Positions 16,822-35,258 of a stretch of DNA of 35,429 nt are shown piece after piece (positions within the stretch are counted from its first letter, which is position 1; each line of letters begins with the position of its first letter). Both the position numbers and the translations under genes were made by a program. Source of the stretch: Clostridia bacterium (GTDB taxonomy: Bacteria; Bacillota; Clostridia; Oscillospirales; SIG627); the NCBI GenBank assembly GCA_017517325.1, contig JAFWZW010000012.1:1-35429 (forward strand), in the 5' to 3' direction. The notes under the pieces were generated by a model. That model was not told the origin of the DNA. It worked only from the letters and a program-made list of their open reading frames with translations, and did no database searches.

Positions 16822-16850
16822 AAAAAAAGCCCTTCTGCCGAAGCAAAAGG
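16822..16850 (-). terminator. T-box-controlled intrinsic terminator
   Basis: Minus strand: CCTTTTGC-TTCG-GCAGAAGG stem with a UUCG tetraloop (one G-U pair) followed by GCTTTTTTTA. It lies 30-40 bases before the ligase RBS and directly after the T-box sequence, as expected for transcriptional T-box control. Confidence 0.88.
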
Positions 16851-17080
16851 ACGACTGTGCCGTGGTACCACCTTCATTTCACCGCAAAGCGGTGCTCTTG
16901 GCGCAATATCGGGCGCACCCGTCTTTCCCTACTGTAAGTTCGGGAGAGCCACTCCGAAGGGAATTCCCGCCGCCGCTTTTCTGCCTTGCACCCACCGGCA
17001 GTTCTCTGGAAAAAGGGGAGGCTGCGGTACTTGTCTTCATCCTCGTGTTTCCTCTTATATAAGAGCACTGAAAAAAACTA
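16822..17080 (-). ncRNA. T-box riboswitch leader, Phe (UUC) specifier
   Basis: Read on the minus strand, this has the full T-box order: Stem I base with GATGAAGACAAGTA (K-turn and AGTA loop), AG bulge (CCAGAGAA), apical loop CTGCC..GGTGGGTGCAA..GGCAG, specifier loop GGGAA-TTC-CCTTCGGAG, the AGTAGGG linker, and the T-box proper AAGGTGGTACCACGGC (16874-16859). The triplet after GAA, at 16963-16961, is TTC, a Phe codon; this register matches known T-boxes such as glyQS (GAA-GGC-ACTTCGAG). Uncharged tRNA-Phe would stabilise the antiterminator and permit transcription of the ligase-iorAB-paaK-ACT operon. Confidence 0.88.
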
Positions 17081-25820: not shown

Positions 25821-25867
25821 AAAGAAGGAACAAGTTCAAAAGAAGGAACAAAGTTTTCTTTTGAGGG

Positions 25868-25896
25868 TTGACATTTTAGAATCAAAAGATTATAAT
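25868..25896 (+). promoter_or_regulatory. Consensus sigma-A promoter of the Phe/Tyr operon
   Basis: TTGACA (25868-25873), exactly 17 bases, TATAAT (25891-25896): a perfect consensus. Transcription would begin near 25903, about 25 bases before the leader peptide ATG. So strong a promoter suggests that control is exerted later, by attenuation. Confidence 0.92.
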
Positions 25897-25926
25897 ATAG
25901 GAAATTTTTCCGAAGGGAGCCGCAGT

Positions 25927-26001
25927 ATGACCGCATTTTACAGCAACCGATTTTATTACTTTACTGCAGCGAACTGTTTGTGCTCCGGGGAAAAAGATTG
26001 A
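25927..26001 (+). CDS. Phe/Tyr-rich leader peptide
   Basis: A 24-codon frame behind GAAGGGAG. The peptide begins MTAFYSNRFYYFTAA and ends in GEKD; six of codons 4-12 are Phe or Tyr (TTT, TAC, TTT, TAT, TAC, TTT). It lies between a perfect promoter and a strong terminator, ahead of the operon that makes just these two amino acids. Its function is to stall the ribosome when charged tRNA-Phe or tRNA-Tyr is short. The peptide itself probably has no other role. Confidence 0.85.
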   Translation: MTAFYSNRFYYFTAANCLCSGEKD

Positions 26002-26075
26002 AAGAAACCCGAATCAAAGCAAATAGTTCGCATTTCGTGCGTACCCGCAAGGGCGCGTGTGAATTGCGATTTTTT
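25969..26075 (+). promoter_or_regulatory. Transcription attenuator of the Phe/Tyr operon
   Basis: Two exclusive structures can be drawn. Antiterminator: GCGAACTGTTTG (25969-25980, inside the leader frame) pairs with CAAATAGTTCGC (26020-26031) over 12 bp with one wobble. Terminator: 26028-26069 followed by six T. The two overlap at 26028-26031, so the antiterminator unpairs the terminator base and separates its upper stem from the T-run. A ribosome stalled on codons 4-11 leaves 25969-25980 free; one reaching the stop codon at 25999 covers or passes it and lets the terminator form. The logic is that of the trp/phe attenuators; the pairing is drawn by eye. Confidence 0.82.
26028..26075 (+). terminator. 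Attenuator terminator hairpin
   Basis: Stem arms 26028-26046 and 26051-26069 pair over about 17 of 19 positions (two mismatches, several G-U pairs), closed by CCC/GGG and a GCAA (GNRA) tetraloop, then TTTTTT. It stands 30 bases before the first structural gene. Confidence 0.88.
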
Positions 26076-26104
26076 ATTTTCGGGAGAAAATGGGAGGAAT
26101 CAAA

Positions 26105-27292
26105 ATGATTTCACAAAAAATGTTAAAGCTGGGCCAGCAAAGCTCGGTGATCCGTGCTATTTCCGAATACGGCAACAAGAGAAAAAAGGAGATCGGCGCC
26201 GAAAACGTGTACGATTTTTCCCTTGGCAATCCCAGCATCCCCGCCCCCGAGGTGATCGGGGATACCTTGAAGGAGCTTCTTGATACCATGCCCCCCTGCG
26301 CCCTCCACGGCTATACCTCTTCCGCGGGCAGTATGGAAGCAAGGGAAGCCATTGCCGCCCATATCCGTGCGCGTTTTGGCGCACCTGCAGACGGAGCCCA
26401 TATCTATATGACCTGCGGCGCCGCCGCCAGCCTTACCATCTCTCTTCACGCACTTTTAAACGAAGGGGAAGAGGTGGTGGTGCCCGCCCCCTTTTTCCCC
26501 GAATATCGGGTCTTTGTTGAAAAAGCGGGGGGCAAGCTGGTGCCCGTGCCCTGCCACCAGCCCTCCTTCCAGTTAAATTTGGAAGCTATGGCGGAAGCCA
26601 TTACCGAAAAGACCAAGGTGGTGCTCCTGAACTCCCCCAATAATCCCACTGGCGCCGTCTATACCCGTGAAAGTCTGGAGGCTCTTGCAGAGCTTCTGAA
26701 GAAAAAGGAAGGAGAATACGGCACCGAGATCTTCCTTCTCACCGACGAGCCCTACCGCGAGCTTTATTACGGCGAAGGGCTTCTCCCCTGGCTCCCTTCC
26801 GTTTACGATCGCACCGTGGTGGGCTATTCCTACAGCAAATCCCTTTCTCTGCCCGGTGAACGCATCGGCTATATCTTCGTTTCTCCCACCTGTCCCGATG
26901 CGGAGCTGGTCTTTGCCGCCGTTTGCGGTGCAGGCAGAAGCCTCGGCTTCGTGTGTGCCCCTTCTATGTGGCAGCACCTGGTCACCCGCGTGCAGGGGGT
27001 TACCTCCGACGTGGAGGAATACCGCGGCAATATGCAGATCCTTGCAGGTGCCCTGAGTGAAATGGGGTACGTAGTGACCCCGCCCGAAGGCGCCTTCTAC
27101 CTCTTCGTAAAAGCCTTGGAGGAGGATGCCGCCGCCTTCTGTGAGCGCGCCAAAAAGTACGAATTGCTTCTGGTCCCCAGCGATTCCTTCGGTGTGCCGG
27201 GCTTTGTGCGCATTGCCTATTGCGTCAGCCGCGAGACCATTGAAAAGAGCCTTCCTGCCTTTCGTAAATTGATGGAGGAATACAAGAAATGA
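26105..27292 (+). CDS. Class I/II aminotransferase, probably aromatic amino acid aminotransferase
   Basis: 395 residues, fold type I PLP enzyme. Seen are NSPNNPTGAVYT, TDEPYRELYY (PLP-binding Asp and Tyr), the Schiff-base lysine in SYSKSLSLPGERIGYIF (K245), and a C-terminal FVRIAYCVS with the carboxylate-binding Arg. As the first gene of the Phe/Tyr operon it likely transaminates phenylpyruvate and 4-hydroxyphenylpyruvate; aspartate aminotransferase activity is the alternative. ATG 26105 follows GGGAGGAATC; an upstream ATG at 26090 would include that RBS. Its stop overlaps the pheA start (ATGA). Confidence 0.88.
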   Translation: MISQKMLKLGQQSSVIRAISEYGNKRKKEIGAENVYDFSLGNPSIPAPEVIGDTLKELLDTMPPCALHGYTSSAGSMEAREAIAAHIRARFGAPADGAHIYMTCGAAASLTISLHALLNEGEEVVVPAPFFPEYRVFVEKAGGKLVPVPCHQPSFQLNLEAMAEAITEKTKVVLLNSPNNPTGAVYTRESLEALAELLKKKEGEYGTEIFLLTDEPYRELYYGEGLLPWLPSVYDRTVVGYSYSKSLSLPGERIGYIFVSPTCPDAELVFAAVCGAGRSLGFVCAPSMWQHLVTRVQGVTSDVEEYRGNMQILAGALSEMGYVVTPPEGAFYLFVKALEEDAAAFCERAKKYELLLVPSDSFGVPGFVRIAYCVSRETIEKSLPAFRKLMEEYKK

Positions 27293-28377
27293 ACGATCTG
27301 GAAGAAGCCCGCCGCGATATAGACCGCATCGACAAGGAAATGGCCCGCCTGTTTCAGGAGCGAATGGGTGCGGCAAAGAAGGTGGCTCTGTATAAGAAAA
27401 AAACGGGGATGCCCATTTTCGACGCCGCCCGTGAGGACGCCATTCTGGCTCGCGGCGCAGAGCGTGTGGAGGACGATGCTCTCCGTGGGTATTACAAAAA
27501 CTATCTCCACGCCGTAATGGATATTTCCAAGGCCTATCAGGCACGGCTCATCGACGGTATGCACGTGGCCTTTTCGGGGGTGCCCGGTGCCTTTGCGGAA
27601 ATTGCCGCAAAGCGCATTTTCCCCCAAGGCTCCCCCGTGGGCTTTCGGAATTTTGAAGAGGCATACCGCGCCGTGGAGGAGGGTCGCTGTGACGCCGCCG
27701 TTCTCCCCCTTGAAAACAGCACAAACGGTGACGTGGGCACGGTCATGGATCTTGCCTTCTTCGGCTCTCTTGCCATCAACGGCATCTACGACATTCAGGT
27801 GGAGCAAAACCTTTTGGCAAAAAAGGAGGCTACCCTTTCGGATATCAAGACCGTTATCAGCCACCCTCAGGCCTTAGGTCAAAGTGCAGGGTTTATTAAG
27901 GAAAAGGGCTTTATGACCCGTGAGGTGGAAAACACCGCCCTTGCCGCCAAAATGGTGGCGGAATCGGGAGATAAGAGCCTTGCCGCCCTCGGCAGTACGG
28001 AAGCGGCCGCCAACTACGGGCTTCAGGTGCTCTGCCCTCACGTTCACGATAAAGGGGGGAATACCACCCGCTTTGCGGTGTTTGCCCCCACCCCCAAGGC
28101 ATCGGGTGCCGAGGATCGGCAGTTCGTAATGGTCTTTACCGTAAAGAACGAGGCGGGCGCCCTTGCAAAGGCGGTATCCGCCATCGGTACCCACGGCTTT
28201 AACCTCCGTGCCATTAAGAGCCGCCCCACCAAGAAGCTCACCTGGGAGTATTACTTCTTCTGCGAAGGGGAAGGCGTGATCCACAGCCCCGAAGGGGAAG
28301 AGATGCTCTTGAAGCTGAAGGAAAACTGCAACGATCTGAAGGTCGTGGGCGCATTTGAAAGAGAAAGCGTATTGTAA
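27289..28377 (+). CDS. pheA: Bifunctional chorismate mutase / prephenate dehydratase
   Basis: A 362-residue P-protein. Domains: AroQ-type chorismate mutase (about 1-85, LEEARRDIDRIDKEMARLFQERM), prephenate dehydratase (about 92-268, with the catalytic TRF at 260-262 in NTTRFAVF), and a C-terminal ACT domain (about 278-355) holding the Phe-binding LRAIKSRP motif. It makes phenylpyruvate from chorismate and is expected to be inhibited by Phe. It overlaps the aminotransferase by 4 bases; aroB follows 6 bases later. It provides the only chorismate mutase seen, so TyrA depends on it too. Confidence 0.97.
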   Translation: MNDLEEARRDIDRIDKEMARLFQERMGAAKKVALYKKKTGMPIFDAAREDAILARGAERVEDDALRGYYKNYLHAVMDISKAYQARLIDGMHVAFSGVPGAFAEIAAKRIFPQGSPVGFRNFEEAYRAVEEGRCDAAVLPLENSTNGDVGTVMDLAFFGSLAINGIYDIQVEQNLLAKKEATLSDIKTVISHPQALGQSAGFIKEKGFMTREVENTALAAKMVAESGDKSLAALGSTEAAANYGLQVLCPHVHDKGGNTTRFAVFAPTPKASGAEDRQFVMVFTVKNEAGALAKAVSAIGTHGFNLRAIKSRPTKKLTWEYYFFCEGEGVIHSPEGEEMLLKLKENCNDLKVVGAFERESVL

Positions 28378-28383
28378 ATTGCT

Positions 28384-29400
28384 ATGAGAATCAACGTTAA
28401 GACCGGTATGGGCGAATATCCCGTTTTTATAGAACGAGGCGGGCTTTCCCGCTTGGGAGAGCTTTTCTCCCTTGACCGTAAGTGTATGATCGTCACCGAC
28501 GAAAACATCCCCCAAAGCCTTGTGGAAGCGGCAGAGGGCGCCTGTGGTGAGGCGCACCGCTTCGTCATCACCCCCGGGGAGCATTCCAAGACTCTGGCCT
28601 CCTTTGAGGCCTGCCTTGAAAAAATGCTGGCTGCCTCCTTTACCAGAGGAGATTGCGTCATCGCTTTAGGCGGCGGCGTGGTGGGGGATCTGGCGGGCTT
28701 TATTGCCTCCGCCTATTTAAGAGGGGTGGATTTTTACAATATCCCCACCACCGTGCTCTCTCAGGTGGATTCCTCCGTTGGGGGCAAGGTAGCGGTGAAT
28801 TTCCGTGGCCTTAAGAATATGGTAGGTGCCTTTTACCCACCAAGGGGCGTTCTGGTGGATCTGGATACCCTTGCCACCCTTCCCCCTCGGCACGTGGCCG
28901 CAGGTCTTGCAGAAGCGGTGAAAATGGGTCTTTCTCTGGATGAATCCCTCTTTCGTCTTTTTGAAGAGGGCGACCCCCACGCAAAGCTTGAGACCGTCAT
29001 TGAAAAGAGCCTTCTTGCCAAAGCGGCGGTGGTAGAAGCCGACGAGCGTGAGGGGGGCATCCGCAAGGTGTTGAACTTCGGTCATACTTTGGCTCACGCT
29101 GTAGAAAGCGAAAGCCACAAGGGGGATAGCCCCCTCTACCACGGGGAATGCGTTGCCTTGGGTATGATCCCTATGTGCACCCAAGAGGTGCGGGCAAGGC
29201 TCATTCCCGTTTTGGAAAAATTAGGGCTCCCCACCGCCTGCCCCTTTGATTACGGAACGCTGATTTCCGCTATGGGGCACGATAAAAAAATGAAGGGTGA
29301 TTCCATTTCGGTGATCCGTGTGGAAAAGGTGGGAGAATACCGCATCGATACTCTTCCCTTTACCCAATTTGCTGAAGAAGTGAAAGGCTTGAAGCTATGA
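28384..29400 (+). CDS. aroB: 3-Dehydroquinate synthase
   Basis: A 338-residue NAD- and zinc-dependent cyclase that turns DAHP into 3-dehydroquinate. NAD-binding GGGVVGDLAGFIAS, substrate-binding PTTVLSQVDSSVGGKVAVN, and zinc ligands in GLAEAVKMG (Glu), NFGHTLAHAVE (His) and YHGECVALGM (His) are all present. Slightly shorter than the usual 345-360. Its RBS is weak (AGAGAAAG at the end of pheA), so translation probably relies on the upstream gene. Overlaps aroC by 4 bases. Confidence 0.97.
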   Translation: MRINVKTGMGEYPVFIERGGLSRLGELFSLDRKCMIVTDENIPQSLVEAAEGACGEAHRFVITPGEHSKTLASFEACLEKMLAASFTRGDCVIALGGGVVGDLAGFIASAYLRGVDFYNIPTTVLSQVDSSVGGKVAVNFRGLKNMVGAFYPPRGVLVDLDTLATLPPRHVAAGLAEAVKMGLSLDESLFRLFEEGDPHAKLETVIEKSLLAKAAVVEADEREGGIRKVLNFGHTLAHAVESESHKGDSPLYHGECVALGMIPMCTQEVRARLIPVLEKLGLPTACPFDYGTLISAMGHDKKMKGDSISVIRVEKVGEYRIDTLPFTQFAEEVKGLKL

Positions 29401-30500
29401 AAAATACCTTTGGAACCGCCGTTTCCCTGACCCTGTTCGGTGAGAGCCACGGGGCGGAGATCGGCTGTGTCATCGACGGCCTTGCCCCCGGCATTCCCGT
29501 TTCCGAGGAGAGGATTGCCGCGGCTCTTTCCCGCCGCAGACCCAGCGGTGCCATTTCCACGGGGCGGCAGGAGCCCGACCCCTTCCGCATCGTCAGCGGC
29601 GTTTACAACGGAAAGACAAGCGGCACGCCCCTTTGCATTCTCATTCCCAATACCACCCAGCGTTCCTCGGATTACGCCGCCTTTACCCGTCTGCGCCCCG
29701 GTCACGCGGATCTTACTGCCTTTCAGAAGTATCACGGCTATCAGGACCCCCGCGGCGGCGGTCACTTTTCAGGGCGCATTACCGCGCCTCTGGTTGCCGC
29801 AGGTGCCATTTTTACCGATGCTCTTCTTAAAAAGGGCATTGCCATCGGTACCCGAATCCGCCGTATTGCAGGGGTGCAGGATCGCCCCTTTGAAGACCTT
29901 GAAGCCGATCTTGCCCTGCTTCAGAGCCGCCCCTTCCCCGTATTGGATGAAGCCGCGGGCGAAAAAATGCAGGAAGTAATCTTGGAAGCCAAAAAAGATG
30001 GAGATAGCGTGGGCGGCGTTTTGGAGACCGTAGTTTTAGGAATGCCCGCAGGCGTGGGCGAGCCTTGGTTTGATTCCATGGAAAGCTCCCTTTCCCGCGC
30101 ACTCTTTGCCGTACCCGCCGTAAAGGGCGTGGAATTTGGCGACGGCTTTGCCCTTTCGGATATGCGTGGCAGTGAAGCAAACGACCCCATCTGCCTTGAC
30201 GAAAAGGGAACGATCACCACCCGCACCAACCGAAACGGCGGCATCAACGGAGGGATCACCAACGGTGCGCCTTTGCGCTTCGCCTGCGCCGTGAAGCCTA
30301 CTCCTACCCTTTTAAGGGAGCAGGATTCCGTAGACTATGCCACGGGTGAGACCATTCGCCTTTCCTCAGGCGGCAGACACGATCCCTGTATCGTGCACCG
30401 CGCCGCGGTGGTGGTGGAAAGCGTGACCGCGCTCGTTCTGGCAGACGCCCTTGCCGCCCGCTTCGGAACGGACTGGCTGGCTCCGGAGGCGGAAAAATGA
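29397..30500 (+). CDS. aroC: Chorismate synthase
   Basis: A 367-residue FMN-dependent enzyme converting EPSP to chorismate. The N-terminal signature FGESHGAEIGCVIDGLAPG, the flavin/substrate loop RRRPSGAISTGRQEPD, the central RPGHADLTAFQKY with RGGGHFSGRITAPL, and TNRNGGINGGITNG are visible. The RGGGHFSGR form instead of the commoner ERSSARET variant marks the clostridial/archaeal-like subgroup. ATGA overlaps on both sides place it firmly in the operon. Confidence 0.97.
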   Translation: MKNTFGTAVSLTLFGESHGAEIGCVIDGLAPGIPVSEERIAAALSRRRPSGAISTGRQEPDPFRIVSGVYNGKTSGTPLCILIPNTTQRSSDYAAFTRLRPGHADLTAFQKYHGYQDPRGGGHFSGRITAPLVAAGAIFTDALLKKGIAIGTRIRRIAGVQDRPFEDLEADLALLQSRPFPVLDEAAGEKMQEVILEAKKDGDSVGGVLETVVLGMPAGVGEPWFDSMESSLSRALFAVPAVKGVEFGDGFALSDMRGSEANDPICLDEKGTITTRTNRNGGINGGITNGAPLRFACAVKPTPTLLREQDSVDYATGETIRLSSGGRHDPCIVHRAAVVVESVTALVLADALAARFGTDWLAPEAEK

Positions 30501-31729
30501 AATTCGGTCTCATCGGTGAGAAGTTAGGGCACAGCTTCTCCAAGCCCATTCACGAGGCCATCGGCCTTTACGAATACGAGATCTGCCCCATCGAGCGTGA
30601 AAAGTTAGACGATTTTCTCACCAGAAGGGAATTTCGGGGCATTAACGTGACCATTCCCTATAAGCGGGACGTGATCCCTTATTTAAAAGAAATTTCTCCC
30701 GAAGCGGTGCTTTGCGATGCGGTGAATACCGTGGTCAACCGCGACGGTGAGCTTTACGGCTACAATACCGACCTGATGGGAATGAAGGCTCTCCTTCATA
30801 AAGGGGGCATTGCCGCCACAGGGAAAAAGGTTTTGATCCTCGGCTCCGGCGGTACCTCGGGCACGGCTCTTGCCCTTTGTAAAAGCCTTGGTGCGGAGCG
30901 GGTGCATCGGGTAAGTCGCTCGGGTCGTGACGGCTGTATTACCTACGAGGAGGCCTACGCCCTGACCGATACCCAGGTGATCATCAATACCACCCCCTGC
31001 GGAATGTTCCCCAATGCTGATGCCTGCCCCGTGGAGCTCTCCCGCTTTCCTTCTCTTTCGGGGGTGGCGGATGCCATCTATAACCCCCTGAAGACCAAAT
31101 TTATTTTAGAAGCGGAAAAAAGAGGGATCCCTGCCGTTGGCGGCCTTTATATGCTGGTGGCACAAGCGGTATACGCCGCCGCCATCTTTACCGATACCCC
31201 CGCTCTGGTGGAGCGGATCGACCCCATTTATACTTCTCTTTTGCGTCAGAAGCAAAATATCGTTCTCCTTGGTATGCCCGGCTGCGGTAAAAGCACCTTG
31301 GGCAAGGCCTTGGCAAAGGAAATGGGGAAGGACTTTTTCGACAGCGATGAAGAGATCGAGACCCAAACGGGTCGTCACCCTTCCGTTATCATCCGTGAGG
31401 ATGGGGAACCGGTCTTTCGGGATCGGGAAGCGGAGGCCATCTTCGCTCTTTCCGCCCGTCAGGGTGCGGTGATCGCTACGGGCGGCGGCGCCGTACTTCG
31501 TGAGGAAAACGTGGAAAACCTGCGGGCAAACGGCATTCTCATCTTTTTGGATGCCCCCCTTGAGACCCTGCAGGCAACCTCCGACCGTCCCCTTTCCGCC
31601 GACCCTGCGTCTCTGGCCCGCCGCTACGAGGAGCGCTATGAAAAATACCGTGCCGCCGCGCATCTTCACGTTCCCGTCAGTCGGGACGTAGAGGCAAATC
31701 TTGCGGCCATCAAAAAGGAACTTATATGA
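30497..31729 (+). CDS. Shikimate dehydrogenase / shikimate kinase fusion (AroE-AroK)
   Basis: 410 residues carrying two consecutive enzymes. Residues 1 to ~245 are shikimate dehydrogenase: GHSFSKPIHE, NVTIPYKRD with catalytic K56, NTD with D92, and NADP motif GSGGTSGTAL. Residues ~252-410 are shikimate kinase: Walker A GMPGCGKST (259-267), DSDEEIE (D284), the Arg-containing EPVFRDREAEA and GGGAVLR (329-335). No stop or frameshift separates them and the linker is only about 8 residues. The fusion couples the steps dehydroshikimate to shikimate to shikimate 3-phosphate. No separate aroE or aroK lies in the window. ATGA overlaps join it to aroC and aroQ. Confidence 0.95.
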   Translation: MKFGLIGEKLGHSFSKPIHEAIGLYEYEICPIEREKLDDFLTRREFRGINVTIPYKRDVIPYLKEISPEAVLCDAVNTVVNRDGELYGYNTDLMGMKALLHKGGIAATGKKVLILGSGGTSGTALALCKSLGAERVHRVSRSGRDGCITYEEAYALTDTQVIINTTPCGMFPNADACPVELSRFPSLSGVADAIYNPLKTKFILEAEKRGIPAVGGLYMLVAQAVYAAAIFTDTPALVERIDPIYTSLLRQKQNIVLLGMPGCGKSTLGKALAKEMGKDFFDSDEEIETQTGRHPSVIIREDGEPVFRDREAEAIFALSARQGAVIATGGGAVLREENVENLRANGILIFLDAPLETLQATSDRPLSADPASLARRYEERYEKYRAAAHLHVPVSRDVEANLAAIKKELI

Positions 31730-32166
31730 AAATTCTTGTGATCAACGGGCCCAATCTGAACTTTTTGGGCATTCGTGAGCCCCAGCATTACGGCAACGAA
31801 ACCTACGAGGATCTGTGCCGACTGATTCGCGACCACGCCCAAAAGAGAGGGGTGGAGGTGGAGATCCTTCAGTCCAACCACGAGGGGGATCTGGTGGATG
31901 CCATTCAAAGCGCCTACGGAACCGCCGCGGGGATCGTGATCAACCCCGCCGCCTATACCCACACCAGCGTTGCCATTTTGGATGCGGTGAAATCCGTTTC
32001 CGTTCCCACGGTGGAGGTGCATATCTCCAAGGTGTCGGAGCGGGAGGACTTCCGTCAGGTAAGTTTTATTCGCTCTGCCTGCATCGCCACCATTACGGGC
32101 AGAGGCTTTCAGGGGTATTTAGATGCTATGGATCTGCTTTTGAACGGGGGCGAAAAGGCCCTATGA
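31726..32166 (+). CDS. aroQ: 3-Dehydroquinate dehydratase, type II
   Basis: A 146-residue flavodoxin-like dodecameric enzyme. The N-terminus ILVINGPNLNFLGIREPQHYG includes the catalytic Arg and Tyr on the mobile loop; INPAAYTHTSVAILDAV and VEVHISKVSEREDFR follow, with the general-acid His. Length is typical. It makes 3-dehydroshikimate for the following dehydrogenase step. Start and stop overlap both neighbours by 4 bases. Confidence 0.97.
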   Translation: MKILVINGPNLNFLGIREPQHYGNETYEDLCRLIRDHAQKRGVEVEILQSNHEGDLVDAIQSAYGTAAGIVINPAAYTHTSVAILDAVKSVSVPTVEVHISKVSEREDFRQVSFIRSACIATITGRGFQGYLDAMDLLLNGGEKAL

Positions 32167-33374
32167 AAGCGAGCTTTACCCCATCTCTTGCCCGTGGCAG
32201 CGTGGTAGCACCCCCATCTAAAAGTATGGGGCACCGCGCTCTGTTCGCCGCCGCCTTGGGGGAAGGCGAAAGCTTTGTTTCTCCCATCGCCCCTTCGGAG
32301 GATATGCGCGCTACCATCAGCGCTCTTTCTGCCCTTGGCGCTACCTTTTCCCCTGAGGGAGAGGGGGTGCGTGTTACGGGAATGGGCTTTCCCCGCAGAG
32401 TGGAGCGGGTAGTCAACTGCCGAGAAAGCGGCAGCACCCTGCGCTTTGTTTTGCCCCTTTGCCTTTTAACGGGGGAGGAAATGCTCCTTACGGGTGCACC
32501 GCGGCTTCTTGCCCGCCCTCTTTCGGTCTACGAGGCGCTTTGCCGTGAAAAGGGTTTCCTTTTTCAGCGTACCGAGGAAGGGATCCTTGTGTGCGGGAAG
32601 CTTGCCCCGGGGGAATACGCCGTTCCGGGGAATATTTCCAGTCAGTTTATTACGGGGCTTCTCTTTGCTCTGTCGCTCCTGCCGAGAGAAAGTCTTCTTC
32701 GGGTCACGGGGGAGATGGAGAGCGCCCCTTACGTGGATATGACCCTTTCCGCTATGGCGGATTTCGGCGTTTTAGTCCGAAAAGAGGGGCAGGACTTTAA
32801 CATTTCCGGCTCCGCCCGCTACCGCAGTAGAGAATACACGGTGGAGGGGGATTATTCCAACGCCGCCTTTCCCGATGCCTTTAACCTGCTGGGGGGCTCC
32901 GTATCCCTTTTGGGTCTGCGGGAGGATTCCCTTCAGGGGGATGCGGTCTACAGAGAGATCTACCCCCGCCTTCAGCAGGGCTACGGCACCTTTGATCTTT
33001 CCCAATGCCCCGACCTTGCCCCCATTCTCTTTGCCCTTGCTGCCGCCCTTCACGGCGGGGAATTTACAGGCACTGCGCGCCTGCGGGAAAAGGAGAGTGA
33101 CCGCGGAGCGGCAATGAAAGCGGAGCTTGAAAAGTGCGGGGTGCACCTGACCTTGGAGGCGAACTGCGTGCTCGTGCCGGGAGGATGTCTGAAAGCACCC
33201 GTAAGCCCCATCTGCGGGCACAACGACCACCGCATCGTGATGGCCATGAGCGTTCTCTTAAGTCGCCTTGGCGGTGAGATCCACGGGGCCGAGGCCGTGA
33301 CCAAAAGCTACCCGAATTTTTTTGAAACGATACGAAAACTTGGAATTGAAGTGAAGACAGATGAAACTGAATAA
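32163..33374 (+). CDS. aroA: 3-Phosphoshikimate 1-carboxyvinyltransferase (EPSP synthase)
   Basis: 403 residues. Active-site motifs: VAPPSKSMGHRAL (Lys), CRESGSTLRF, SSQFITGLLFAL, VEGDYSNAAFPDAFNLL with the catalytic Asp, RLREKESDRGAAM and GHNDHRIVMAM. It transfers the enolpyruvyl group from PEP to shikimate 3-phosphate. The open frame starts at 31815, but ATG 32163 overlaps the aroQ stop (ATGA) and begins exactly at the family N-terminus. Its end overlaps tyrA by 14 bases, the longest overlap in the operon. Confidence 0.97.
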   Translation: MKASFTPSLARGSVVAPPSKSMGHRALFAAALGEGESFVSPIAPSEDMRATISALSALGATFSPEGEGVRVTGMGFPRRVERVVNCRESGSTLRFVLPLCLLTGEEMLLTGAPRLLARPLSVYEALCREKGFLFQRTEEGILVCGKLAPGEYAVPGNISSQFITGLLFALSLLPRESLLRVTGEMESAPYVDMTLSAMADFGVLVRKEGQDFNISGSARYRSREYTVEGDYSNAAFPDAFNLLGGSVSLLGLREDSLQGDAVYREIYPRLQQGYGTFDLSQCPDLAPILFALAAALHGGEFTGTARLREKESDRGAAMKAELEKCGVHLTLEANCVLVPGGCLKAPVSPICGHNDHRIVMAMSVLLSRLGGEIHGAEAVTKSYPNFFETIRKLGIEVKTDETE

Positions 33375-34236
33375 AAATGCAGATACGAAAATCCTCATCG
33401 TAGGCCTTGGGCTTTTGGGCGGCTCCTACGCCAAAGCTCTGAAGAAAAAGGGCTATACGGTATGGGCCATTGAAAAAAAACAGGAATCCGTGGATTTTGC
33501 CCTTGCCCACGGCATCGCGGACCGTGCCTCCACCGCCGTGGAGCCCCAGTGGATCCGTGAGGCGAACCTGACGGTCTTTGCCCTTTACCCCCACGTATTT
33601 TTAAAATGGGTGGAGGAAAACGCCGCGCTCTTTCCCGCAGGGGCGCTTCTTACCGACGTGACCGGTGTAAAATCCGCCGTGGTCAGCCGCATTCAGGCAC
33701 TTTTGCCCCAAGGGGTGGAATACGTGGCGGCGCACCCCATGGCAGGCAGAGAGGTGGGCGGTGTTGAAAACAGTGACGATGCCATTTTCCACGGCGCCAA
33801 CTTCATCGTGGTGCCCACCGAGGCCAATACCCACGGAGGGGTGGAGACCTGTAAGGAATTGGGGCGTGAATTGGGCTTTGGCCATATCAGCGTGCTGACA
33901 CCCCAAAAGCACGATGAAATGATCGCCTTTCTTTCTCAGCTGACCCACTGTATTGCCGTGAGCCTTATGTGCGCAGGTGACGATCGGGGGCTCGTGGATT
34001 ACACCGGTGACTCCTTTCGGGATCTGACCCGCATTGCCCGTATTCAGGAGGATATGTGGTCGGAGCTGTTCCTTCTCAACAAGGAAGCGCTGCTTTGCCA
34101 GATCGAAAAATTCCGCCAAAGCTTCGATGCACTGGTTGATGCCATTGCCCGTGAAGATACCGAGACTATGAAGGAAATGATGCGCCTTTCCACCGCCCGC
34201 CGCGCTCTGTTTGACAGAAAAGGAGATACCAAATGA
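33361..34236 (+). CDS. tyrA: Prephenate dehydrogenase
   Basis: 291 residues. N-terminal Rossmann motif ILIVGLGLLGGSYAKALKKKG; conserved catalytic-domain motifs AAHPMAGREVGGVENSD with the prephenate-binding His, and LSQLTHCIAVSLM. It oxidises prephenate to 4-hydroxyphenylpyruvate. There is no C-terminal ACT domain and no chorismate mutase fusion, so Tyr feedback must come from another route. It starts inside aroA and overlaps the DAHP synthase gene by 4 bases. Confidence 0.95.
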   Translation: MKLNKNADTKILIVGLGLLGGSYAKALKKKGYTVWAIEKKQESVDFALAHGIADRASTAVEPQWIREANLTVFALYPHVFLKWVEENAALFPAGALLTDVTGVKSAVVSRIQALLPQGVEYVAAHPMAGREVGGVENSDDAIFHGANFIVVPTEANTHGGVETCKELGRELGFGHISVLTPQKHDEMIAFLSQLTHCIAVSLMCAGDDRGLVDYTGDSFRDLTRIARIQEDMWSELFLLNKEALLCQIEKFRQSFDALVDAIAREDTETMKEMMRLSTARRALFDRKGDTK

Positions 34237-35258
34237 ATTTCATTCGCAAATTACCCATTCCCCAGGAGATCAAAGCCCAGTTTCCCTTAAAGCCCGAGTG
34301 GGAGACGGTGCGCGATGAGAAGATCGCAGAATTGAGAGATATTTTCGCAGGCAAAAGCCAAAAGCTGGTTCTCATCATCGGCCCTTGCTCTGCCGATGCC
34401 CGCAACCCCGTAATGGCGTATCTGGAAAAGCTGGCCCGCGCTCAGGAGGAAACGAAGGACAGGCTTCTGATCATTCCCCGCATTTACACCAACAAGCCCC
34501 GCACCACCGGTGAGGGCTACAAGGGAATGCTTCACCAGCCAGATCCCGCCAGCCGCCCCGATATGCTCCGCGGTATCGTTGCCATTCGTCAGCTGCACCG
34601 TGCCGCCCTTTCCGACTTCGGCTTTACCTGTGCCGATGAAATGCTCTACCCCGAAAACCACCGCTACCTTTCCGACCTTCTGGCCTACATTGCGGTGGGA
34701 GCAAGAAGCGTTGAAAACCAGCAGCACCGCCTCACCGCCAGCGGCCTTGACGTACCCGTGGGAATGAAAAACCCAACCGGCGGTGATATGCACGTTCTGA
34801 TGAATTCCATCTACGCCGCCCAAAACGCCCACACCTTTCTCTACCGTGGGTGGGAGGTGCACAGCGACGGTAACCCCTACGCCCACGCCATTATGCGCGG
34901 CTACGTGGATTTCTCGGGCAAGTGCGTTTCCAATTACCACTACGAGGATCTCTGCGAGCTTCACGAGCTTTACGGTGGTACCAACCTTCGCAATCCCGCC
35001 TGCATCGTGGATACCAATCACGCCAATTCCGGCAAACGCTACCTGGAGCAGATCCGCATTGCCAAGGACGTGATCCATAGCCGCAACCAAAGCGATGATA
35101 TCCGCCGCCTTGTGAAGGGGCTGATGATCGAAAGCTATCTGGAGGATGGGGCGCAGGCCATCGGAGAGGACACCTTCGGTAAGTCCATTACCGATCCCTG
35201 TCTGGGCTGGGAAAAATCTCACCGCCTGATCCTTGACATTGCCGACAGCATCCGATAA
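34233..35258 (+). CDS. 3-Deoxy-7-phosphoheptulonate (DAHP) synthase, AroG/F type
   Basis: 341 residues of the type I-alpha family (E. coli AroF/G/H-like). Motifs: LIIGPCSAD (metal Cys), RIYTNKPRTTGEGYKG (PEP/E4P binding), CADEML, GARSVENQQHR, GMKNPTGGD (Lys) and DTNHANSGKRY (His). It condenses PEP and erythrose 4-phosphate, the committed step; the family is generally feedback-inhibited by an aromatic amino acid. It is the last gene, although it acts first in the pathway. GARSVENQ differs from the commoner GARTTESQ. Preceded by AAAGGAG in the end of tyrA. Confidence 0.95.
   Translation: MNFIRKLPIPQEIKAQFPLKPEWETVRDEKIAELRDIFAGKSQKLVLIIGPCSADARNPVMAYLEKLARAQEETKDRLLIIPRIYTNKPRTTGEGYKGMLHQPDPASRPDMLRGIVAIRQLHRAALSDFGFTCADEMLYPENHRYLSDLLAYIAVGARSVENQQHRLTASGLDVPVGMKNPTGGDMHVLMNSIYAAQNAHTFLYRGWEVHSDGNPYAHAIMRGYVDFSGKCVSNYHYEDLCELHELYGGTNLRNPACIVDTNHANSGKRYLEQIRIAKDVIHSRNQSDDIRRLVKGLMIESYLEDGAQAIGEDTFGKSITDPCLGWEKSHRLILDIADSIR

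Follow-up and report, generated by a model that had tools for sequence, protein, structure and literature searches.

A conserved Phe/Tyr-rich leader frame with alternative RNA helices, probably a transcription attenuator, precedes aromatic amino acid operons in Clostridia

The leader and the operon

The window, by which we mean the whole stretch of DNA analysed, is a 35-kb contig (35,429 nt) of a Clostridia genome assembly of 1.74 Mb and 81% completeness. On its forward strand it carries a nearly gapless run of nine genes that cover the shikimate pathway and both branches leading to Phe and Tyr. By best match, these genes encode a PLP-dependent, aspC-like aminotransferase (NF005305; 26090–27292), the chorismate mutase-prephenate dehydratase PheA (27289–28377), AroB (28384–29400), AroC (29397–30500), an AroE-AroK fusion (30497–31729), the type II dehydroquinate dehydratase AroQ (31726–32166), AroA (32166–33374), the prephenate dehydrogenase TyrA (33361–34236) and a DAHP synthase of the aroFGH type (34233–35258); the dehydratase part of pheA, aroE-aroK, aroA and tyrA score under the NCBIfam cut-offs.

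Upstream of the first gene, on the same strand, lies a sigma-70-type promoter, TTGACA-17-TATAAT (25868–25896), which matches the consensus at 12 of 12 positions, as the first-pass annotation of this DNA had read it. The promoter is followed by a short frame with its own Shine-Dalgarno sequence, both read directly from the sequence. The frame, MTAFYSNRFYYFTAANCLCSGEKD (25927–26001 including the stop), has 24 codons, and the six Phe/Tyr codons earlier reported in it are indeed there, at codons 4, 5, 9, 10, 11 and 12. These putative control codons (F4 Y5 and F9 Y10 Y11 F12; 25936–25962, forward strand) correspond to an aromatic cluster that can be aligned in relatives, and they agree with the end products of the operon, Phe and Tyr. 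None of 2000 dinucleotide shuffles of positions 25860–26089 contained a frame of 10–45 codons preceded by a Shine-Dalgarno sequence and holding six Phe/Tyr codons among nine.

Four further stretches of the leader, all on the forward strand, can pair with one another and are referred to below as segments 1 to 4. Segment 1 comprises the leader Shine-Dalgarno sequence (25915–25919) and the spacer to the start codon (25915–25926 in all). Segment 2, the 5' arm of an antiterminator that is defined by covariation, lies within the leader frame (25969–25981), and segment 3 (26019–26031), placed by alignment and covariation, is the 3' arm of the antiterminator and is common to the base of the terminator. 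Segments 3 and 4 form an intrinsic terminator before the first gene (26028–26075, from folding and alignment), with the base at 26028–26032/26065–26069, a GCAA loop at 26047–26050 and six T at 26070–26075, which is the GNRA-capped terminator with six T that had been described. A 12-bp antiterminator had also been claimed, joining 25969–25980 to 26020–26031 and invading the terminator base; it is present, with one G-U among its 12 pairs and one more G-U that lengthens it to 13, and the stretch that it has in common with the terminator base is 26028–26031 (4 bp). The promoter, the frame, the antiterminator and the terminator are confirmed as real elements of this locus. Taken alone, the leader of the window has an unremarkable fold energy (z −1.78; 13 of 200 shuffles as good), and the hairpin at 26028–26075 was not listed by a simple terminator scan of the window; the case therefore rests on comparison.

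Conservation of the leader among relatives

Loci were gathered by the protein of the first gene. From 59 genomes (the window's own included) came 21 of them; the others are the best 80 of 389 relatives found in named genome contigs, for the most part metagenome assemblies that carry the label Clostridia or Oscillospiraceae. With three duplicates removed, 99 distinct loci were available. Leaders rich in Phe/Tyr were chosen first with a script threshold and then by visual inspection, at which stage one was added (L003) and four with frames above the threshold were dropped (L020, L062, L063 and L084). The resulting set of 34 leaders includes that of the window and some near copies, such as L019 and L021. 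In all 34 loci pheA comes next, whereas in the other 65 loci pheA comes next with enough upstream sequence and no leader in 8, pheA comes next with too little upstream sequence in 3, and the remaining 54 either lack an operon gene within 400 nt or offer insufficient sequence (51, 2 and 1). The leader is present in 34 of the 42 loci that combine pheA in this position with enough upstream sequence. A covariance model built from the 34 leaders and run against the other 65 loci, including the four dropped by eye, gave only matches at E 0.29 and 0.64, neither of them convincing.

A promoter-like site matching at least 10 of 12 consensus positions, taken as the best per locus in about 110 nt with no shuffled control, is found in all 34 aligned loci; its −10 box ends 27–47 nt 5' of the leader start codon, which argues against a transcript start downstream of 26001. 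The leaders are 19–28 codons long. Of their 769 residues past the start, 119 are F, 125 are Y and none is W, about 32% F/Y in all. The aromatic codons are also kept in 23 of 23 further loci, although the model by which these were found has the codons built in; this second set holds a single W, in the tail of L140. The last aromatic codon ends 3–9 nt 5' of segment 2 in the 34 loci and 0–9 nt across all 57. F and Y are interchanged at three of the last four aromatic positions (27 F/7 Y, 29 Y/5 F and 23 F/8 Y), a pattern expected if both amino acids are under selection. One of these positions has a mixed third base (TAT 14, TAC 16), and the other three nearly always have T, so that codon choice or a constraint at the DNA level contributes there as well. 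Because sensing is read here from sequence, one could suppose that the conserved leader keeps read-through at a fixed level, or helps re-initiation, with no amino acid being sensed; the F/Y content, the lack of W in the 34 leaders and the close approach of the aromatic run to segment 2 all fit sensing better, and we regard a fixed-level leader as very improbable.

Most of the 57 peptides also share a motif resembling [DGN]C[LPS] 3' of the aromatic run, a recurrence that might point to a functional small protein, with the helices belonging to an ordinary attenuator or terminator that acts independently of its translation. The peptides vary in length across the 57 loci (17–29 residues) and have differing tails, and the motif tracks the RNA: L124 has its frame shifted through segment 2, which is then read as RAAR while the RNA is intact, and in L009, L121 and L132 F or Y stands in place of the Cys, with segment 3 altered to match. 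These changes indicate that segment 2 is conserved as RNA, and a small protein as the reason for conservation is hardly credible.

Mutually exclusive helices

The antiterminator and the terminator base are both supported by the alignment of the 34 leaders (A1). In the antiterminator (columns 61–73/138–150) 77.1% of cells are paired, against 72.9% with shuffled letters (a level reached in 0 of 500 shuffles), and two-sided change is seen in 10 of 13 pairs; the corresponding values for the terminator base (columns 145–151/186–192) are 92.9% and 88.8% (again 0 of 500), with two-sided change in 5 of 7 pairs. When the partner is slid by 1–3 columns, pairing falls to 28–42% in the antiterminator and 31–44% in the terminator base. 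Since columns 145–150 are common to the two helices, antiterminator and terminator base exclude each other there. Columns 64, 147 and 190, one in each of the three arms, read G/C/G in 32 of 34 loci, A/U/A in the window and A/U/G in L010. RNAalifold, applied to the whole alignment, returns the terminator base alone, as expected for alternative structures. Comparison with related operons had been proposed in the first-pass annotation as the way to check its reading, and in the 34 leaders it bears that reading out: the F/Y codons and both helices are conserved, the latter with covariation.

The 23 further loci agree in part, with 79.8% of antiterminator cells paired against 76.3% for shuffled letters (0 of 500 as high); two of five covariation measures are unremarkable in this set, namely the number of two-sided pairs, equalled or exceeded in 51 of 500 shuffles, and that of pair types, in 327 of 500. 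A covarying antiterminator that excludes the terminator is therefore found, with weaker support in the 23-locus set. As a separate observation, columns 69 and 142 of the antiterminator do not pair in 23 of 34 loci; by eye the mismatch is often C-A, even though TGT, the alternative codon for Cys, would allow pairing with the A.

A third helix

Segment 2, together with the sequence 3' of it, can base-pair with the stretch that runs from the Shine-Dalgarno sequence to the start codon. In the 34 loci this helix between segments 1 and 2 scores 17.5 when the two sides come from the same locus and 14.6 (sd 0.48) across loci, a difference reached by none of 10,000 permutations; after thinning by identity to 28, 22 and 17 loci, P is at most 0.00015. 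In the 23 loci, which had not been used before, the scores are 18.0 and 14.5 (sd 0.56; 0 of 20,000). Kinship can inflate such permutation tests, an effect that the thinning and the second set lessen and do not remove. The helix is short in the window (GGAGC/GCTCC) and is illustrated by L006 (GTGTGCAAA/TTTGCACAC), L036 (TTGAACAG/CTGTTCAA) and L140 (AAAGGAGACGGG/CCCGTCTTCTTT). Across the 34 loci the centre of segment 1 falls between −10 and −3 relative to the start codon, and in 10 of them the segment overlaps the core of a Shine-Dalgarno sequence by at least 3 nt. While the terminator and antiterminator of the first-pass structure stand, this third helix and the position of segment 2 inside the frame were missing from it.

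Distribution and gene context

Searches with a covariance model built from the aligned leaders (R1) found the element in 37 of 395 genomes of the order, representing 16 of 168 genera (window included). In the class, 7 of 391 genomes have a match, 4 of them from other orders, and in the phylum 3 of 398, one of which is false. That one (G1148, E 0.007) was rejected because no gene of an aromatic operon lies nearby; by eye, the next frame is recombinase-like. The window's own genome has one convincing match; three weak extra ones (E 0.18, 1.6 and 7.0) were set aside, as they fall in loci with no match to the proteins of the operon.

As R1 selects the letters of the leader, those of the new matches are not independent evidence; the genes that follow do provide an independent test, since no gene sequence went into the model. 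Among 30 of the 37 matches in the order that were inspected, 11 of which came from the training set, 15 precede aspC-pheA, 9 pheA-aroB, 5 aroF-pheA and 1 a pheA near a contig end; the remaining 7 of 37 (one at E 0.008) lie outside this count. The four matches in other orders have aroF-pheA (2) or pheA-aroB (2) downstream. Conserved F/Y codons, covarying helices and gene context thus support, in silico, the earlier proposal of ribosome-mediated attenuation of the nine-gene Phe/Tyr operon. Judged from this comparative evidence, the leader is very probably a Phe/Tyr transcription attenuator that works through translation of the leader and would sense the charging of tRNA-Phe and tRNA-Tyr together.

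Layout and proposed mechanism

The arrangement of the leader can be compared with that of the classical attenuators of E. coli. The likeness lies in a short leader peptide, control codons for the end product and mutually exclusive antiterminator and terminator helices, and E. coli pheL precedes pheA, which is likewise present in the operons described here. The differences are that F and Y codons are mixed here, that a whole shikimate-Phe-Tyr operon lies downstream, and that the segments are placed otherwise. A helix scan of E. coli K-12 places the start of segment 2 just past the stop, 3 nt after it in trpL and 2 nt after it in pheL, whereas in none of our 57 loci does segment 2 follow the stop in this way: all of them (34/34 and 23/23) have it within the leader frame. 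In E. coli trp, segment 1 holds the control codons, and those of pheL can be seen inside segment 1 in its sequence; in our 34 loci they lie outside it, segment 1 being the stretch from the Shine-Dalgarno sequence to the start. With segment 2 inside the frame and a third helix available, the terminating ribosome need not act as it does in E. coli trp.

In the proposed mechanism, a shortage of Phe or Tyr would stall the ribosome at F9, Y10 or Y11, codons whose identity and position are observed. The stalled ribosome would leave segment 2 free to pair with segment 3, so that the terminator base would stay open and the operon would be read. When both amino acids are plentiful, the ribosome would pass segment 2 and reach the stop between segments 2 and 3, and pairing of 3 with 4 would terminate transcription. 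Because of the position of the stop, a ribosome ending translation is expected to sit between segments 2 and 3. With less assurance, a ribosome stalled on the F/Y codons may be placed between segments 1 and 2, while one at the stop may separate 2 from 3 and let segment 2 fold back on segment 1. The pairing of 1 with 2 would then cover the start region of the leader, damp re-initiation and make termination the default if the leader is not translated.

We tentatively put forward a distinct layout in which the ribosome would serve as a movable barrier and the helix favouring termination would also shut the leader start, and by which two amino acids might be integrated in a lineage where a T-box serves to sense Phe by itself; this is quite conceivable while falling short of probable. 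Its main competitor is action of the E. coli type, in which the terminating ribosome covers segment 2 directly, at least in part, and the pairing of 1 with 2 is incidental. What matters here is the distance from segment 2 to the end of the stop, which is 8–35 nt in the 34 loci and 8–41 nt in the 23. It is only 8–17 nt in 29 of 57 loci (15/34 and 14/23), near enough for a ribosome at the stop still to cover part of segment 2; these short-tail loci lessen the weight of the barrier layout and raise that of direct masking. In the other 28 loci the distance is 20–41 nt. Together with these, the position of segment 2 upstream of the stop in every locus, so unlike the 3 and 2 nt beyond it in trpL and pheL, and the support for the 1:2 helix in two sets of loci weigh against direct masking, which we consider a somewhat doubtful yet serious possibility.

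The barrier layout was modelled by folding, with pairing of 2 with 3 across the ribosome forbidden by assumption. For the window, a ribosome stalled at F9–Y11 gives 0.03–0.18 for the terminator base and 0.94–0.99 for the antiterminator, and a ribosome at the stop gives 0.97 and 0, respectively; stalled at F12, the terminator base is already favoured (0.93). The mean for the terminator base over the 34 loci is 0.69 with the ribosome stalled at the first codon of the cluster and 0.98 at the stop. As the terminator base dominates at equilibrium in many stalled relatives, kinetics must matter. In the ribosome-free state the antiterminator stands at 0.84 in the window, unlike the 34-locus mean of 0.11. 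Plain-footprint folding of the window's stop state gives 0.45 for the terminator and 0.86 for the antiterminator and does not reproduce the switch. In four loci the stop lies close to segment 3, ending 1 nt 5' of it in L140 and 5–7 nt in L036, L006 and L057, near enough for a terminating ribosome to overlie some of segment 3. The layout offers a natural test of how an attenuator works when the stop codon falls beyond segment 2.

Relation to known systems

The first-pass annotation considered ribosome-mediated attenuation of a Phe/Tyr operon unexpected in Bacillota; leader-peptide attenuation does have precedents in this phylum, in Clostridia among others. In the excerpts of the papers on which we draw, His leaders are predicted in Bacillus (PMC2965389) and in Eubacteriales, including C. 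difficile and its kin, and Erysipelotrichales (PMC9413887), and a predicted leader before hisZ in C. difficile is cited (PMC4833913). Leaders of branched-chain ilv-leu operons in S. aureus and Listeria are backed by experiments (PMC5794164, PMC5864092), and are also the subject of PMC11109978 and PMC1262725; a model of attenuation is given in PMC1183508. The His attenuators resemble the present leader in having predicted leader peptides and a terminator in Bacillota including Clostridia, and differ in their His codons and his genes (PMC2965389, PMC9413887). Listeria Rli60 and the S. aureus ilv-leu leader are likewise cases of leader-peptide attenuation in Bacillota, but respond to branched-chain amino acids, and in Listeria the alternative hairpins lie downstream of the leader peptide (PMC5864092, PMC5794164).

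Another related system is the uORFC-13-1 motif, a proposed upstream frame with at least one Phe codon that lies, with a promoter, a ribosome-binding site and a terminator, before aroF in Acholeplasma (PMC8632094). Compared by description rather than by sequence, it differs in being known, in the excerpt cited, from 24 examples confined to Acholeplasma and environmental sequences (PMC8632094). In the excerpts of open-licence PMC papers that were searched, no Phe/Tyr leader in Clostridia was found described. The leader is best explained, on sequence evidence, as a known kind of control that appears new to these operons as far as searched and whose layout differs from that of E. coli in two tested features. 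For gut bacteria, in which T-boxes are the textbook answer, it would represent an additional, conserved RNA sensor of Phe and Tyr that occurs in several families and extends to other orders of the class.

T-boxes and leaderless operons

The T-box is the usual means by which Bacillota sense uncharged tRNA. Four T-boxes are found in the genome studied here, and UUC (Phe) occupies the specifier position of two, so that it might be supposed that a T-box, a riboswitch or a protein-sensed antiterminator controls the operon and that the F/Y frame is a coincidence. The T-box model (RF00230) has a single match in the window, on the reverse strand at 16844–17052 (127.5 bits), and none at the leader; an Rfam search of the leader to E 10 gave one unrelated match (E 2.7) and none to the enterobacterial Phe leader. 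Nor is there any Rfam match at gathering score in the loci of 20 relatives, with and without the leader, while frames rich in F/Y are found time and again, in 57 loci and ahead of operons that begin in three different ways. Control of the operon by one of these other devices is accordingly very improbable, and the leader-peptide attenuator is the reading retained.

The T-box of the window, with UUC in the specifier position, precedes genes for an acyl-CoA ligase, the alpha subunit of indolepyruvate ferredoxin oxidoreductase (IorA), a POR-domain protein and a second AMP-binding protein, the last of the phenylacetate-CoA-ligase type as we read its Pfam match. The others lie before pheS, also with UUC (L105 1501–1722, reverse strand), before trpB, with UGG (L104 1501–1737, an Rfam match), and before thrS (L106 1501–1703, reverse strand); those before pheS and thrS score under the Rfam gathering score. 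The specifiers were read off an alignment, in which the T-boxes of the window and of pheS have UUC where that of trpB has UGG, and the readings are to be taken as deduced from it. It is likely that the window T-box, at a distance of 9 kb from the leader, senses Phe and serves an arylacetate/arylpyruvate operon.

Thus Phe seems to be sensed by a T-box nearby and Phe together with Tyr by a leader peptide at the biosynthetic operon, both mechanisms being present in one genome, with UUC T-boxes before the arylpyruvate operon and pheS and the leader peptide before the Phe/Tyr operon. Since a T-box reads one tRNA and a leader peptide can read two, this may be a reason for the choice, and a testable one.

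Eight aspC-pheA operons have no leader. Four of them (L029, L031, L054 and L074) have no leader, Rfam element or GTTAAC palindrome. The other four carry GTTAACNNNGTTAAC near the promoter (L063 2731–2745, L064 2956–2970, L073 977–991 and L095 2980–2994), and these are the only ones of 146 loci to do so. A divergent gene of the TetR family is present in all three of these loci examined (L063, L064 and L095), which suggests that in the operons bearing GTTAACNNNGTTAAC a protein has possibly replaced the RNA attenuator.
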